Assembly: GCA_019973575.1 (NCBI GenBank)
Contig: BPUI01000001.1
Span: forward strand, 682,001 to 746,000
Direction: 5' to 3'
Source of the DNA: Gemmatimonadetes bacterium T265
GTDB taxonomy: Bacteria > Gemmatimonadota > Gemmatimonadetes > Gemmatimonadales > Gemmatimonadaceae
DNA length: 64,000 nt
Shown: positions 4,876 through 54,149 of the stretch, one piece after another
Numbering within the stretch: position 1 is the stretch's first letter
How the letters are laid out: the number at the start of each line of letters is the position of its first letter
The notes under the pieces: model-generated
The model's input: the letters and a program-made list of their open reading frames with translations, nothing else
What the model was told of the DNA's origin: nothing
Databases searched by the model: none
Program-made: the position numbers and the translations under genes

Positions 4876-5895
4876 CTAATCCAACGCCCGCTGCTCCAGG
4901 AACATCCGCGCCGCCCCCACCACCCCCGCCGTGCCGTCGAGCGCGCCCGGGACGATCCGCGCCGCCTCGACCGCCGGCCGGAACGCCCGCCGCCGCACCT
5001 CCGCCCGCAGCGGCCCGAAGAGCGCCTCGCCCGCGCGCGCCACCCCGCCCGCGAGCACCACGACGTCCGGGTTGTACACGTTCAGCAGGTTCGCCACCCC
5101 GGCGCCGAGGAAGCGGGCCGTGTCGCGCACCACCTCGCGCGCGAGCGCGTCGCCTCGGTCGCTCGCGTCGTACACCGTCGCGGCCGTGATCCGCGCCGGG
5201 TCCCCGCCCGCGAGGTCGGGGAGGATCGACGGCGCGGCCGCCTCGTCCTGCACCTCGAGCGCCTCGCGCGCCCGCAGCGCGATGTTCGGCCCCGACGCGT
5301 ACGCCTCCAGGCAGCCGTAGTTGCCGCAGGTGCACCGCCGCCCCGCCGTCTCGATCGTCGTGTGGCCCACCTCGCCGGCCACGTCGGAGGCGCCGTGGAA
5401 GAGCCGGCCGTCGAGAATCAGCCCGCCCCCGATCCCCGTCCCGAGCGTGATCCCGACGACGTGGCGCGCGCCCCGGGCCGCCCCCGTCCACCACTCGCCT
5501 AACGTCGCGCAGTTCGCGTCGTTGTCGAGCGCCGCCGGCAGCCCCACCCGCTCGGCGATCAGCGCGCGCAGCGGCAGGTCGTGCCAGCCGAGGTTGTGCG
5601 CGACGACGACGACCCCGCGCGCCCGGTCGAGCGCGCCCGGCGAGCCCACGCCGACCCCCGCGAACGCCGCGCGCGGCACGCCCTCCGCCGCCATCGCGCC
5701 GACGAGCGTCGTCTCGATCATCCCGACGATCCGGTCGACGACGGCCGCGGCGCCGAGATCCGCCCGCGTGAGCCCCGTGTGCACGGCCACCGCGCGCCCG
5801 CTCGCCGCCTCGACCGCGCCCACGCTGATGTTCGTCCCCCCGAGGTCCACCCCCACGACGTAGCGCGGGGCGTCCCCGCTCGCGCCCGCGCTCAC
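4876..5895 (-). CDS. ROK-family sugar kinase, last gene of an amino-sugar operon
   Basis: 339 residues from a GTG that overlaps the stop of the GH20 gene by 4 nt (GTGA), implying translational coupling. The ATP-binding DLGGTN lies at residues 17-22. The ROK zinc-binding site (GHTTIE followed by CTCGNYGCLEAY) and the ALDNDANC and GTGIGGG segments are intact. ROK kinases phosphorylate glucose, N-acetylglucosamine or related sugars. In this operon, directly after a secreted hexosaminidase and NagB, N-acetylglucosamine or N-acetylhexosamine kinase (NagK) is the likeliest role, but glucokinase cannot be excluded from sequence alone. Confidence 0.88.
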   Translation of the reverse strand: MSAGASGDAPRYVVGVDLGGTNISVGAVEAASGRAVAVHTGLTRADLGAAAVVDRIVGMIETTLVGAMAAEGVPRAAFAGVGVGSPGALDRARGVVVVAHNLGWHDLPLRALIAERVGLPAALDNDANCATLGEWWTGAARGARHVVGITLGTGIGGGLILDGRLFHGASDVAGEVGHTTIETAGRRCTCGNYGCLEAYASGPNIALRAREALEVQDEAAAPSILPDLAGGDPARITAATVYDASDRGDALAREVVRDTARFLGAGVANLLNVYNPDVVVLAGGVARAGEALFGPLRAEVRRRAFRPAVEAARIVPGALDGTAGVVGAARMFLEQRALD

Positions 5896-48038: not shown

Positions 48039-48338
48039 GTGACGCCCGACCCCTACGCGAGCCTCCGCGACCGCGTCGTCCGCGGCGTGCTGGCGGGCGC
48101 TGGCGAGAGTGAGCCCGCGTTGCGAAGCGCGGCGGCCGACGGGACCGGCCTGCCCGACGACCTGCAGGCGCTCGTCGACAAGATCCACCGCCACGCGTAC
48201 CGCGTCACCGACGACGACGTCGCGCGCCTGCGCGCCACGTACGGCGACGACCCGCTGTTCGAGATCATCGTGAGCGCCGCCCTCGGCGCCTCGCGCCGAC
48301 GACTGCTCACCGGCCTGGAGGCCCTGGAGCTGGCATGA
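48039..48338 (+). CDS. Small helical protein coupled to the first selenoprotein gene
   Basis: 99 residues from a GTG at 48039. The sequence looks all-helical (DPYASLRDRVVRGVL, LQALVDKIHRHAYRVTDDDVARL, then EIIVSAALGASRRRLLTGLEAL). The second half resembles the helical core of AhpD/CMD-type proteins without their Cys pair, and it often seems to be a companion of such genes; this is from memory of the family style, not a search. Its stop overlaps the start of the selenoprotein gene (ATGA), indicating tight translational coupling and perhaps a hetero-oligomer. Confidence 0.65.
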   Translation: MTPDPYASLRDRVVRGVLAGAGESEPALRSAAADGTGLPDDLQALVDKIHRHAYRVTDDDVARLRATYGDDPLFEIIVSAALGASRRRLLTGLEALELA

Positions 48339-48913
48339 GACTCGAGAAGGTGCACCGGGGGCACGGTCTCCGGGACAAGGTGATGCTGGCCGTGATGCGC
48401 GTCGCCACCGGGCACGCGCCCGGCGTCGTGCGCACCCTGCTCTACCGCAAAGAGTTCTTCGGGCGCCCGTGGTCGGAGCTGACGCAGCAGGTGATGCGCG
48501 GGCCGTCGCCGTGGACCGTCGGCGAGCGGGAGATCTTCGCCGCCGTCGTCTCGCGCTTCAACGCGTGCACGTTCTGAACGAACGCCCACTCCGCGGTCGC
48601 GGAGGCGGCGCTCGGGACGGGCACGATGGGGCCGATCCTCGCCGACTACCGGACGGCGCCCATCGACGAGCGGGTGCGCGCGACGCTCGGACTCCTCGAG
48701 ACGTTCACGCTCCGCCCGGAGCAGCTCACGCCGGACGACGTGCGCGCGGTGCTCGCGGCCGGGGTGACGCGCGAGGCGGTGCGCGACGCGTTCTACGTCG
48801 CGTTCCTCTTCAACACGTACGACCGGCTGGCCGACACGCTCGGCTGGGAGCTGCCGGACGCGCGCTACTACCCGAAGTCGGGACGGCACCTGCTCAAGAA
48901 CGGCTATCTATAG
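48335..48913 (+). CDS. AhpD-like selenoprotein (CxxU), in-frame TGA at codon 81
   Basis: 192 residues if the TGA at 48575-48577 is read as selenocysteine. The protein reads [17 protein letters not shown]78-x-x-U81 followed by H85, with E66 twelve residues before C78, matching the Glu/CxxC/His proton relay of AhpD-type alkylhydroperoxidases (CMD fold). Coding and helical character continue uninterrupted after the TGA to 48913 ([26 protein letters not shown]). The TGA replaces the cysteine normally found there. A SECIS-like hairpin follows, and tRNA-Sec and selD lie just downstream. Likely role: thiol/selenol-dependent peroxidase. AhpD-like selenoproteins are known from metagenomic surveys. Confidence 0.9.
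48575..48604 (+). promoter_or_regulatory. Bacterial SECIS element of the first AhpD-like selenoprotein
   Basis: TGA, 11 nt, then a perfect 6-bp stem CTCCGC/GCGGAG (48589-48594 with 48599-48604) closed by the loop GGTC. In E. coli fdhF the SelB-binding hairpin also begins 11 nt after UGA and shows a GGUCU-type apical loop whose G and U contact SelB. The same geometry occurs at the second selenoprotein gene (53871-53900). Confidence 0.88.
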
Positions 48914-48956: not shown

Positions 48957-49050
48957 GGGGGCGGATGGGGTCTGGTGGCCTCCTCGGTCTTCAAAACCGA
49001 TGCGACCCGGCGACGCCGGGTCTGGTGGGTTCGATTCCCACACGTTCCCG
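48957..49050 (+). tRNA. selC: tRNA-Sec (anticodon UCA)
   Basis: A 94-nt cloverleaf with all the oddities of tRNA-Sec. The 8-nt acceptor strand starts GGGGGCGG and pairs with ACGTTCCC (two G-U pairs, G-A at position 8). The D arm has a 6-bp stem with a TGGT loop. The anticodon stem TCGGT/ACCGA carries the loop CTTCAAA with anticodon TCA. A long variable arm forms an 8-bp stem GACCCGGC/GCCGGGTC, and the T arm is GTGGG-TTCGATT-CCCAC. The CCA end is not encoded. It sits 43 nt after the first selenoprotein gene and 20 nt before selD. Confidence 0.93.
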
Positions 49051-49070
49051 CCGGCGCGGCGCCGACGCGC

Positions 49071-50129
49071 GTGACCACGCCAGCGCCCGCCGACGCGCCC
49101 CGCCCGGTCCGGCTCACCGAGTACGCCCACGGCGCGGGCTGCGGCTGCAAAATCTCCCCCGCGGTGCTGACCCGCATCCTCGCGGGCGCCGGGCCGGGGT
49201 TCGCCGACCCGCGGCTGCTGGTCGGCCACGGCGCCCGGGACGACGCGGCCGTCTACGCGCTCGACGACGAGCGCGCCCTCATCAGCACCACCGACTTCTT
49301 CATGCCGGTCGTCGACGACCCCGCCGACTTCGGCGCGGTCGCGGCGACCAACGCGATCAGCGACGTCTACGCGATGGGCGGCACGCCCGTCATGGCGGTC
49401 GCGATCCTCGGCTGGCCGGTCGCCGTGCTCGACCCCGAGATCGCCGGCGAGGTGCTGCGCGGCGCGGGCGAGGCGTGCGCGCGTGCCGGGATCGCGCTCG
49501 CCGGCGGCCACAGCATCGACGCGCCCGAGCCGATCTTCGGGCTCGCCGTGACCGGCACCGCGCGGCGCGCCGAGGTGCGCACCAACGCGCAGGGCCGCGT
49601 CGGGTGCGAGTTGTACCTCACCAAGCCGTTAGGCGTGGGCGTGCTCACCACCGCGCAGAAGCGCGGCCTGCTCCGCGACGCGGACCTGGCCGAGGTGCGC
49701 GCGCTCATGCTCACGCTCAACGACCTCGGCCCCGCGCTCGCCCGCCTCGACGCGGTCGCGACGATGACCGACGTGACCGGCTTCGGCCTGCTCGGCCACC
49801 TGCTGGAGGTGTGCGACGCGAGCGACCTCTCGGCCGAGGTGCACGTGGCCGACGTGCCGCGCCTCGCGTCGCTCGCCGACTACGTGGAGCGCGGCGCCGT
49901 CCCCGGCGGCACCAAGCGCAACGCCGCCAGCTACGGCGAGCACGTCGGGCCGCTGCCGGACGCGTGGCGCGACCTGTTGTGCGACCCGCAGACGAGCGGC
50001 GGCCTGCTCGTCGCGGTGGACCCGCGCGGGCGCGACGACTTCCTCCGCGTCACGCGCGCGCGCGGCCTCGACCTGCGCCCGTTCGGCGTGCTCACGCCGC
50101 GCGCCGAGCCGACGATCCGCCTGGTCTGA
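49071..50129 (+). CDS. selD: Selenide, water dikinase
   Basis: 352 residues from the GTG at 49071; earlier in-frame starts would lie inside the tRNA. The catalytic segment [10 protein letters not shown] matches the E. coli enzyme, giving C24 and K27 as the catalytic pair (Cys form, not itself a selenoprotein). ATP-binding aspartates are seen in GARDDAAVY and [13 protein letters not shown], with [13 protein letters not shown] and TGFGLLGHL further on. It makes selenophosphate from selenide and ATP, the donor for SelA. It is convergent with selB (10-bp gap), and downstream of selC on the same strand. Confidence 0.95.
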
Positions 50130-50139
50130 GCGCCGCGCG

Positions 50140-52053
50140 TCAGGCGCGGGCGCCGACGCGGTAGTGGCGGTCGCCGTCGCGGCGCAGGACGCGCTCGCGC
50201 CCGAGGTACTCGAGGTAGGCGACCCCGTGCCGGCGCGTGACGCCTAACGCCTGGCAGAACTCCGCGGCGCGCACGCCGTCGAGCCCGAGGCGGCCCGGCG
50301 CCTCGCGCAGCGCCGCGGCCGCCTCGGCGTGCAGCAGCAGATCGCCGCGCTCGGCGCCCACGCGCACGGCCCGCCCCCCCGCGCACAGCCGCGCGACGAC
50401 CCGGTCGAACACGTCGCCCGCCTCGGGCTCCGCCGCACGGTACGCCGCGATCGTCCCCGGGCGGAGCCACTCGGCGTGGAGCCGCGCGAGCACCGCGTCC
50501 GCGACGCGCTGCTCCTCCGCCGTCAGCCCGGTGCGCCCGGGGTGCACGACCGCCGCGGCGCGCTCCAGCCGCAGCGGCGGCGCGTCGGCGGGGGCGTCGC
50601 CGCCGACGGACGTACCGTCGCGCGCGAGCAGCGACCGGAGCAGCGGCTGCACGTGCGCGGCCGACACCCGCAGGGCGCGCGCGAGCCGGTCGTAGGGCAC
50701 CACGTGCTCGGTGGCGGGCCCGTCTTCGACGACGCGGCGCAGCCGGTCGCGTACGTCGCGCTCCGTCGCCGCCGTCCACGTCAGCAGCGACACGCCCGCC
50801 TGGGCGAGCCGGAGCGTCGGGCTGCGCTCGGCTGCGGCGCGGAGCATGCGCGGGGCGACCATCCAGCGGCGAGCGAGCAGCGCCAGGTCGAGCACCGGCC
50901 CGGCGCCGGCTTCGAGGTAGACCGTTAGACAGCCGCCGTCCGCGCGGCACGCGTAGGCGGCCCGCTCCGCCGCCGTCACGTGGCGTGGCCGGTCGGGCGC
51001 GAGGTCGAGCACCTCGCCGCCGCCCACGGTCGCGAGGGGGCTGCCGCCGCGCAGGAGGAAGCGCTGGCCCGGGAAGAACACCGCCTCGCGCGGCAGCTCG
51101 AGCTGCGCCCACGACGCGTCCCCGTCGCCCGCCACGTCCCACACTCGGCACTCCACCTCGAGGCATCCCGCGTGGAAGAGCAGCCGCGCGCCGTGCTTCC
51201 ACGCGCGCGGCGCCTCCGGCGTCCAGCGCAGGCGCGCGTTCAGCACGCGGCCGCGGTACGGGTGGTCGGGCGCGACGAGCACGTCGCCGCGGCGGACGGC
51301 GTTGGCGTCGAGCCCGGCCAGGTTGACGCCGACGCGGTGCCCCGCGGCGATCCGCGCGACCCGCGCGCGGTGGTTGGTCAGTGCGCGCACGCGCCACGTC
51401 CCGGGCCGCGCGCCTAACGCCACCTGGTCGCCTTCCGCGAGGGTGCCGCGCGCGAGCGTCCCGGTCACCACGGTGCCGACCCCGGGAACGCTGAACACGC
51501 GGTCGACCGGGAGGTACGGGCGCGCGTCCTCGTCGTCCCCCGGAGTGTCCGCGCCAGTTGCGGCGAAGATCGCGTCCTTGAGCGCCGGGATCCCCGCGCC
51601 GGCGACGGAGTCGACCGCGTGCAGGGGCAGCACGCGCAGGTCGCGCCCCGCGAGCAGCGCGACGACGTCCCGCCGGGCGGCGGCGACCTGCTCGGCGTCC
51701 GCGACCGCGACCTTCGTCAGCACCGGGATGAGCGCGCGCACGCCCAACAGCTCGAGGATGTGCAGGTGCTCGCGCGACTGCGGCCGCACGCCCTCGCGCG
51801 CGTCCACCACCCAGAGCGCGAGGTCGAAGCCCGTGGCCCCGGCGGCCATGTTCTTCACCAGCCGCTCGTGCCCCGGCACGTCGACGATCCCGAGGCGGTA
51901 CCCGCGCGGGTGGTCGAGGTGGGCATAGCCGAGGTCGATCGTCATGCCGCGCGCGCGCTCCTCCGGCAGGCGCGACGGGTGCACGCCGGTCAGGGCCTCG
52001 ACGAGCGTGGACTTGCCGTGGTCGATGTGGCCGGCCGTCCCGATCAGGCGCAT
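50140..52053 (-). CDS. selB: Selenocysteine-specific elongation factor SelB
   Basis: 637 residues. The EF-Tu-like GTPase has GHIDHGKS (8-15), GMTIDLGY and DVPGHE (58-63). The base-recognition motif usually written [NT]KxD reads TKVA (113-116), with Asp shifted to 119. Domains 2-3 follow to about 330 ([19 protein letters not shown]), then four winged-helix domains to the end, the last with [20 protein letters not shown]. The C-terminal winged helices bind SECIS RNA while the GTPase part carries Sec-tRNA(Sec) to the ribosome. The start is 13 nt after the selA stop. Confidence 0.95.
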
Positions 52054-52066
52054 TGCCTAACGCTTC

Positions 52067-53491
52067 CTAACGTCCCGCGGCGGCGCCCAGGTCGTCCAGG
52101 GCGGCCTGCAGCTCGGGGAGGTCGTGCGGCAGCACGGCGCGGACGTCCAGCAGGCAGCGGTCGTGCCGCACGTAGCCGACGACGGGCACCGCGCGCGCGG
52201 CGAGGGCCTGGCGCACGCCGTGCGCGCTCAGGTCGCGGTGCGCGAGCTCCAGGCCCCAGCTCGGGAAGTCGACCTCGGGGTTGGAGCCGCCGCCGAGCGT
52301 CGCGCGGAGCGGCACGGGGCGCACCGCGGCCCAGCGCGTGTCCGGCCCGGGCAGGCGCAGCTCGGCCACCCGCGCCTGGAGCTGCTCGACCGTGGCGTGG
52401 AACAGCCGCCAGAGCGGCAGCGCGTCGGCCTCGCCCGCGAGGTGGCGCGCGAGGCAGCGGTGCAGCAGCGCCATGCGCACCTTGTCGAGCCGCAGCGCGC
52501 GGTAGAGCGGGTTCCGCCGCATCGCGCCGACGTGCGCGGCGCGCCCCACGAGGATGCCGGCCTGCACGCCGCCGAGGAGCTTGTCGGCGCTGCAGCACAC
52601 CACGTCCACGCCGCGCGCCACGCTCGACGCCACGTCCGGCTCGTCGCGCAGTGCCGCGGCGGGCGACGGGGCGAGCAGGCCCGACCCGGTGTCCTCGAGC
52701 ACCGGTAGTCCGAACGCGGCGCCTAACGCGACCATCTCGTCGGCCGACACCTGCTCGACGAAGCCGCGCTGCACGAAGTTGGCCTGGTGCACCTTGAGGA
52801 GCACCGCGGCCGAGGGGCCGGCGGCCTCGCGGAAGTCCGCCGCGCGCGTCCGGTTGGTCGTACCGACCTCGCGCAGCCGGCACCCGCTCGCCGCGACCAC
52901 GTCGGGGACGCGGAAGCTGCCGCCGATCTCGACCAGCTCGGAGCGGCTCACGAGCGCCTCGCGGCCGGCCGCCAGCGTGTTGAGCGCGAGCAGCAGCGCG
53001 CTCGCGCAGTTGTTCACCACGAGCGCGGCCTCGGCGCCGGTCAGCAGCGCGAGTTGGCGGCCGAGCGCCGCGTCGCGGTCGCCGCGGCCCTGCGTCCGGG
53101 CGTCCCACTCGAGGTCGGTATAGCCGCCGAGGGCGTCGGCGTCGACCGCGTCGAGCAGGTCGCCGAGCGGGGCGCGGCCGAGGTTGGTGTGGACGAGCAC
53201 CCCGGTGGCGTTGACGACGCGGCGCGGGAAGGGGCGGGCGAGCGCCTCCGCCTCCGCCGCGCACTCGGCCACGCACGCCGCGACCACCGCCGCGCGCTCG
53301 CCGTTCCGACGTGCGGGCGCGGGCGCCGACGCGCGCACGGGGTCGCGCAGGGCGTCGCGTCGCGCCTGCAGCACCCGCCGGACGAGGCGCGTCCGGAATG
53401 GGTCGGCGAGGCCCGCGGCGGCCGCGGCGAACGCGGGGTGCCGCAGCACCTCGTCGACCGACGGCAGGTGGGCGAGCGGGTGGTCGGTCAA
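52067..53491 (-). CDS. selA: L-seryl-tRNA(Sec) selenium transferase
   Basis: 474 residues, close to the usual 460. The PLP-binding lysine is K304 in CCSADKLLGGVQAG; NATGVLVHTNLGRAPL, NNCASALLLALNTLA, EDTGSGLL and the N-terminal helical domain (PSVDEVLRHP) are all characteristic. It converts Ser-tRNA(Sec) to Sec-tRNA(Sec) using selenophosphate from SelD, as a homodecamer in E. coli. The TAG stop lies in the partial motif CGTTAGG of the genome octamer. It lies between the second selenoprotein gene (64 nt upstream) and selB, on the same strand, presumably one operon. Confidence 0.95.
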   Translation of the reverse strand: MTDHPLAHLPSVDEVLRHPAFAAAAAGLADPFRTRLVRRVLQARRDALRDPVRASAPAPARRNGERAAVVAACVAECAAEAEALARPFPRRVVNATGVLVHTNLGRAPLGDLLDAVDADALGGYTDLEWDARTQGRGDRDAALGRQLALLTGAEAALVVNNCASALLLALNTLAAGREALVSRSELVEIGGSFRVPDVVAASGCRLREVGTTNRTRAADFREAAGPSAAVLLKVHQANFVQRGFVEQVSADEMVALGAAFGLPVLEDTGSGLLAPSPAAALRDEPDVASSVARGVDVVCCSADKLLGGVQAGILVGRAAHVGAMRRNPLYRALRLDKVRMALLHRCLARHLAGEADALPLWRLFHATVEQLQARVAELRLPGPDTRWAAVRPVPLRATLGGGSNPEVDFPSWGLELAHRDLSAHGVRQALAARAVPVVGYVRHDRCLLDVRAVLPHDLPELQAALDDLGAAAGR

Positions 53492-53555: not shown

Positions 53556-54149
53556 TCAGCGCGCGTACGAGCCCTGCGCACTGCGCTTGCCGCCCGCGCG
53601 GTGCGCCTCGTCCGAGAGCGCGTGCACGCCGGTGGCGTCGATCCAGCGGTTGTAGAAGTTGAACAGCGCGCAGACGGTGATCGCGAAGTACAGCGCGTCG
53701 TCCGTCCAGCCTTCGGCCCGCATCGCCGCGAGGTCGTCCGCGGTGATGTTGGGCGAGTCCTCGTTGACGCGAGTGAGGAAGCGGAACAGCGCCTTGTGGC
53801 GCGCGTCCAGCCGCGACGTCTCGACGTCGCGCAGCACCTCGCCGACCAGTTCTTCGTCCCCGAGCAGCTCCGCCGCGACCGCGGCGTGCGACTTGAGTCA
53901 GAAGGGACAGGCGTTGCGCTGCGACGTGTACGCCGCGATCAGCTCGCGCATCCCGGGCGAGATCGGCCCGGGGCCGCGCAGGATCTCCTGCGTGAAGCGG
54001 CCGAGGTGTTGCGTCGCATCCGGCAGGTAGGCGAAAAGGTGCCAGATCTGCGGGTACTCCTGCCCCGCCTTCTGCGCGTGCGCGATCAGGTCGCGGTAGG
54101 GTCCGGGCTTCGGGCTCCCCTCGACGTCGGGGAGGAACATCGGGTCCAT
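53556..54149 (-). CDS. Second AhpD-like selenoprotein (CxxU), in-frame TGA at codon 84
   Basis: 197 residues if the TGA at 53900-53898 is read as selenocysteine. The protein reads NACPF-U-LKSHAAVAAE: C81-x-x-U84, then H88, and E69 twelve residues before C81, the AhpD proton-relay spacing. The frame continues as a clear CMD-fold protein to 53556 (DARHKALFRFLTRVNED, WTDDALYFAITVCALFNFYNRW). It is only distantly like the first selenoprotein (48335), so they are separate family members, not a recent duplication. First gene of an apparent operon with selA and selB. Likely a cytoplasmic peroxidase or thiol oxidoreductase. Confidence 0.92.
53871..53900 (-). promoter_or_regulatory. Bacterial SECIS element of the second AhpD-like selenoprotein
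   Basis: On the minus strand: TGA, 11 nt, then a perfect 6-bp stem CGCCGC/GCGGCG with the loop GGTC. Spacing, stem length and loop equal those at 48575-48604, though the two genes are otherwise diverged. That is strong support for both UGA codons being recoded by SelB. Confidence 0.9.

Follow-up and report, generated by a model that had tools for sequence, protein, structure and literature searches.

Two putative bulge-free bacterial SECIS elements and their predicted CxxU selenoproteins of the AhpD/CMD family in Gemmatimonadetes bacterium T265

The window analyzed here—a stretch of 64,000 nucleotides from Gemmatimonadetes bacterium T265—carries two in-frame UGA codons, each followed at 11 nt by a hairpin of six base pairs with a GGUC loop, and we consider both hairpins to be, with a probability of about 0.96, working bacterial SECIS (bSECIS) elements that would serve two AhpD/CMD redox proteins of the CxxU type. 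The element as well as the protein families are of kinds already known, and the pair found in the window is, on well-supported sequence grounds, a securely identified addition to them. The features concerned are the following:

48039-48338, plus strand: small putative partner ORF, 99 aa, overlapping gene A at its start (ATGA) and kept ahead of A-type genes in other loci
48335-48913, plus strand: predicted selenoprotein A, 192 aa, AhpD/CMD fold, CxxU...H (PF02627, 29.2 bits; AlphaFold; 6k40)
48575-48577, plus strand: in-frame UGA, predicted to be read as Sec, U81 of selenoprotein A, motif CTFU (direct sequence reading; TGA at the aligned codon in homologues)
48589-48604, plus strand: putative bSECIS upper hairpin CTCCGC-GGTC-GCGGAG, 11 nt after the UGA (sequence, folding, alignment, covariance model, silent sites)
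48957-49052, plus strand: tRNA-Sec (selC), anticodon UCA (ARAGORN; Rfam RF01852, 73.1 bits)
49071-50129, plus strand: selD, selenide water dikinase, Cys form, GCGCK (NCBIfam selD models, 416.7 and 500.6 bits)
50140-52053, minus strand: selB, Sec-specific elongation factor with C-terminal winged helix (TIGR00475, 263.8 bits; PF09107, 30.7 bits)
52067-53491, minus strand: selA, L-seryl-tRNA(Sec) selenium transferase (TIGR00474, 436.8 bits)
53556-54149, minus strand: predicted selenoprotein B, 197 aa, AhpD-like peroxidase-related, CPFU (TIGR01926, 88.6 bits; PF02627, 38.9 bits)
53900-53898, minus strand: in-frame UGA, predicted to be read as Sec, U84 of selenoprotein B, motif CPFU (direct sequence reading; homologue alignment)
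53886-53871, minus strand: putative bSECIS upper hairpin CGCCGC-GGTC-GCGGCG, 11 nt after the UGA (sequence, folding, alignment, covariance model, silent sites)

The proteins and the Sec locus

Genes A and B flank a complete Sec set, with the tRNA-Sec, selD, selB, and selA—all of them scoring above the curated cut-offs—lying between them. Gene B, selA, and selB are co-directional and separated by 64 and 13 nt, and B is likely the first gene of a B-selA-selB operon; A, the tRNA-Sec, and selD run the opposite way. A selenoprotein placed ahead of its own synthesis genes could render that operon responsive to the selenium supply. In a relative (G148), a B gene lies some 75 nt before selA (C4:455134-455727 and 455802-457133), and a tRNA-Sec adjoining gene A was not found in the flanks of relatives that we examined. 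The genome has a size of 5.6 Mb, and the closest homologues among the titled records belong to the Gemmatimonadaceae and to other Gemmatimonadetes. Formate dehydrogenase, considered as a further selenoprotein, was discarded: neither of two molybdopterin-domain matches contained an internal stop.

Both A and B exceed the PF02627 cut-off of 23 bits (29.2 and 38.9), while the TIGR01926 cut-off of 81.8 bits is surpassed by B (88.6) and leaves A below (68.7). The nearest solved structure to A is 6k40 (E 2e-17), and the structure predicted for A (AlphaFold pLDDT 90.7) matches those of AhpD proteins, the best Foldseek hit being 6k40 (E 8e-8, TM 0.72). Across 17 diverse members, the residues E66, C78, U81, and H85 do not vary, and this E-CxxU-H arrangement we take to be the AhpD spacing of Glu, CxxC (here CxxU), and His. 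By a natural inference from their family, A and B would be peroxidase or thiol-redox proteins with Sec as the attacking residue.

In 66 distinct loci from several phyla, among them loci of mycobacteria having the Cys form, a conserved counterpart of the 99-aa ORF precedes the A-type gene. That ORF has no match in Pfam or NCBIfam; by profile comparison it appears to resemble the C-terminal half of a CMD domain (hhalign 94%), with a weak PF02627 match in one member, and its product is likely a partner subunit.

The two hairpins

In the plus-strand element, the TGA precedes the spacer ACGAACGCCCA (48578-48588), the arm CTCCGC (48589-48594), the loop GGTC (48595-48598), and the arm GCGGAG (48599-48604); in the minus-strand element, the TGA at 53900-53898 is followed by the 11-nt spacer CTCAAGTCGCA and then by CGCCGC GGTC GCGGCG. 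A preliminary description of this DNA had reported for both strands a TGA with an 11-nt spacer, a fully paired stem of 6 bp, and the loop GGTC, all of which we recovered at the same coordinates, and had added that the stems differ yet stay paired and that the host genes are diverged. The stems do differ by one base per arm, with T-A on the plus strand and G-C on the minus strand, a double substitution that keeps the pairing, and the identity between A and B is 39% over 123 aa. RNA folding predicts the 6-bp hairpin for both elements. The fold z-scores against dinucleotide shuffles were weak (-1.3 to -2.4) and were left out of the evidence, and the longer lower stems of single-sequence folds were dropped, being absent as a conserved feature from the homologue alignment.

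With the sequence treated as non-coding, these two are the only ones among the 815 TGA trinucleotides of the window (both strands) to be followed by a 6-bp GGTC hairpin at a spacing of 11; a first-order Markov control of the same kind gave such a hairpin in about 1 in 19,600, and a likewise non-coding search of the genome for a TGA followed by 9-14 nt and CNNCGCGGTCGCGNNG returned 14 places, with full pairing in only these two. A covariance model run genome-wide gave two full-length matches only (E 1e-18 and 1e-17), the next best lacking a TGA.

The hairpin might nonetheless be a by-product of coding, in that H-x-A-V-A-x written in GC-rich codons is self-complementary—Ala-Val-Ala as GCG GTC GCG being nearly so—with the UGA read by other means. 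In random synonymous coding of HSAVAE and HAAVAA under local codon usage, a 6-bp stem with a GU loop arose with p ~0.25 for each peptide, so that either gene of the window, considered alone, speaks for this explanation; upon requiring the exact GGTC loop, the p for the same peptides was ~0.07. Because Ala-Val-Ala coding in a GC-rich genome tends to form the hairpin core, covariation between two sequences is weak, and after this control we discarded it as proof. The covariation-like signal put forward in the preliminary description is accordingly weak when inferred from the two sequences alone.

The published bSECIS rules call for an apical loop of 3-9 nt, an upper stem of 4-16 bp, a G in the first two loop positions, a loop 16-37 nt after the UGA, and an MFE of at most -7.5 (PMC13188914). 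Prediction by such rules had been proposed at the outset as a check, and both elements do satisfy them; but in the GC-rich window 60 of 150 random TGAs (40%) do so as well, which permissiveness again favors a coding by-product, and satisfying the rules therefore says little. Our own implementation folds the bare hairpin only, and rejects E. coli fdhF. Rfam gave no bacterial SECIS match in the window. Since coding alone yields such stems often and loose rules are permissive, two sequences are by themselves no proof of a SECIS, so that homologues were needed; the sequence pair of the window, taken alone, is evidence of modest weight.

Conservation and covariation among homologues

One protein search of the GTDB genomes and two of the class provided 143 matches with the codon aligned, in which set one gene may appear in more than one locus; the codon was TGA in 124, TGC in 14, and TGT in 5. 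The TGA records belong, by title, to Gemmatimonadetes, Myxococcales and other Deltaproteobacteria, Actinobacteria, Chloroflexi, Planctomycetota, and acidobacterial groups, and in the TGA homologues the protein homology runs for more than 100 residues past the TGA, to the C-terminus. What we found is the configuration by which a bacterial SECIS is recognized: a hairpin directly 3' of an in-frame UGA, with Cys at that codon in homologues. If the TGAs were instead ordinary premature stops—in pseudogenes, truncated proteins, or sequencing errors—both genes would end at the TGA, as indeed they would in standard gene callers; but the occurrence of the TGA at the same codon in those 124 matches, always at the position of the active-site Cys and with homology so far beyond, together with the Cys forms in genomes without SelA, makes the probability of that explanation practically negligible.

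In the 77 distinct A/B-type Sec genes, 98.5% of the stem cells are paired, and double changes were observed in 38 cells versus 11.2±2.2 after shuffling (0 of 500 shuffles as high); no slid register paired as well in those genes as the actual one. The first covarying pair is G-C in 67 genes, U-A in 8, A-U in 1, and G-U in 1; the second is G-U in 46, C-G in 28, and A-U in 2; the inner three pairs are invariant and, by themselves, uninformative on covariation. A protein tree from which the hairpin columns had been left out implies about nine changes of stem type, 7 on each side. The compensatory changes that an alignment of homologues had been expected to reveal are thus present, and among 97 distinct Sec homologues we encountered no case of a TGA kept with the hairpin lost, the weakest having 4 of 6 pairs with the GGTC intact.

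An Actinomycetota bin (L064) has two tandem A-type TGA genes, at 5590 and 6151 (+). In the first of these, the stem is clearly degraded (4 of 6 pairs, GCGACC arm), the one such case encountered; a search of that bin for SelA found none.

The spacer is constant at 11 nt among the A/B-type Sec homologues, and among the unpaired bases conservation is highest at the loop G and U, including those of four Chloroflexi genes that keep the stem with an AGTT loop instead of GGTC, the G and then the U being retained. Both results bear on the possibility that Sec decoding is real, with the hairpin acting mainly in ribosome pausing or mRNA stability and SelB recognizing some other sequence. Consistent with that reading, the bulged U of E. 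coli is missing here and the binding of SelB is a prediction; yet the fixed spacing, and the location of the conserved G and U at the known SelB contact positions even in the AGTT variants, render it very unlikely.

Silent sites and locked residues

An entropy scan over the 129 columns with enough fourfold codons placed the five lowest third-base entropies at codons +5, +6, +7, +8, and +9 after the Sec (0, 0.29, 0.29, 0, and 0.62, respectively; median 1.41); the invariant Ala codons at -12 and -11 gave 1.50. A perfect hairpin with a GU loop is present in 72 of 78 Sec genes, versus 16.9±3.4 (maximum 27, 400 trials) when codons +4 to +9 were recoded according to each gene's own synonymous usage. 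A hairpin that were only a by-product of coding would accord neither with that excess nor with third bases frozen at +5 to +9 only and compensatory changes on both arms; the Chloroflexi genes, moreover, retain the stem with the AGTT loop, and the CFYU-type genes, with a different peptide, still form a stem of 6 bp, closed by a loop of 5 nt, with almost the same spacer length. We thus regard the by-product explanation as extremely unlikely.

The residues at +5 and +9 are likewise restricted in the Sec genes, where the pairs are G-S (46), A-A (19), S-E (8), D-S (2), T-V (1), A-V (1), and G-T (1), which locking—absent among the Cys homologues—is what the base-pairing of codons +5 and +9 would demand. 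The SECIS identity asserted in the preliminary description gains its support from the compensatory stem changes along with a silent-site conservation confined to the hairpin, and we judge that this comparative evidence settles the SECIS question in favor.

SelA and the Cys homologues

In the 198 class genomes, and among the matches listed, SelA is present in 98 of the 101 with a TGA form and in 0 of the 9 with sense-codon homologues only (Fisher p 5e-11), the TGA-form tally counting stops inside protein matches, with a codon-level check in part of the genomes. The three TGA-form genomes in which SelA was not detected are fragmented assemblies.

The Cys homologues (TGC/TGT) of the M. kansasii complex (L039, L042, L044, L047, L049) are placed inside the Sec clade and keep a 5-6 bp stem with a GGTC loop at a spacing of 11, in genomes that keep SelA. 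Those stems are possibly a remnant SECIS after a Sec-to-Cys change, the chance of their arising from coding alone being not small. Outside that complex, L168 has the only Cys homologue with an NGUN loop on a stem of at least 5 pairs (CGTC, 5 pairs); L164, another close relative, forms 3 pairs only.

Proposed mechanism and comparison with known systems

From established Sec biology, SelA would make Sec on the tRNA-Sec, using selenophosphate supplied by SelD; the genes for all three lie between A and B. SelB would, through its C-terminal winged-helix part, bind the hairpin 11 nt downstream of the UGA at which the ribosome stands, contact the G and the U of the GGUC loop, and deliver the Sec-tRNA(UCA) to the A site, upon which the UGA would be read as selenocysteine and not as a stop. 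Judging from the family, both products would be redox proteins of the AhpD/CMD type, with CxxU as the active site.

The preliminary description had equated the elements with the SelB-binding mini-hairpin of E. coli fdhF, which likeness extends to the 11 nt after the UGA, the six base pairs, and the GGUC loop, and stops at the bulged U. The fdhF element reads TGA CACGGCCCATC GGT-T-GCA-GGTC-TGC-ACC, as confirmed in E. coli records, and comprises 17 nt with a bulged U in the stem, whereas in the window and in the homologues the stem is a continuous one of 6 bp, the hairpin here has 16 nt, and the stem sequences are unrelated. Without the bulged U, the loop begins after 17 nt as compared to 18 nt in fdhF, and the elements are therefore not fdhF-type hairpins in the narrow sense. 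E. coli SelB contacts that bulged U of the fdhF hairpin, so that in its absence recognition by SelB must differ somewhat.

The window elements fit wholly within the consensus bSECIS model, their conservation of register and sequence across phyla being stricter than that model requires (PMC13188914). The same source already lists AhpD-like (TIGR01926) and CMD-like (PF02627) CxxU selenoproteins (PMC13188914), with which A and B share the CxxU motif, B passing both models and A passing PF02627; A differs in falling short of TIGR01926 (68.7 bits, with the cut-off at 81.8) and in having the conserved small partner. The CFYU(T) selenoprotein NF041238 resembles A and B in its related AhpD domain, in the Sec at the same motif position, and in a 6-bp SECIS at a similar distance; but with 39 and 32 bits, A and B remain below its cut-off of 175, and the NF041238 family has a 5-nt loop and a 10-nt spacer. 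In 20 genes of the CFYU subfamily, the 6-bp stem starting 10 nt after the TGA and closed by a 5-nt loop has 100% of its cells paired. A family of their own, the AhpD selenoproteins of the CFYU type occur widely in the class (e.g., L109-L118, L136-L148), and in L070, also of the CFYU type, a compensatory C-G change is found in the stem.

Biological significance

We see the odds as even that the AhpD/CMD selenoproteins of many phyla have retained, in a single register, a bulge-free SECIS class—UGA, 11 nt, 6 bp, and an NGUN loop—that is co-adapted with a SelB not needing the bulged U of E. coli, and whose pairing dictates the residues at Sec+5 and Sec+9 (G-S, A-A, S-E, D-S, T-V). AhpD/CMD genes with an in-frame TGA are common in the bacterial class (101 of 198 sampled genomes, among the matches listed), which class received no mention in the selenoproteome literature that we searched for it. 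Two antioxidant-type genes that automatic annotation would halve are read here, from their sequences, as probable real selenoproteins. They provide a natural case of an RNA signal inside a coding region that constrains protein residues, and their simple bulge-free hairpin a test case for what SelB really needs.
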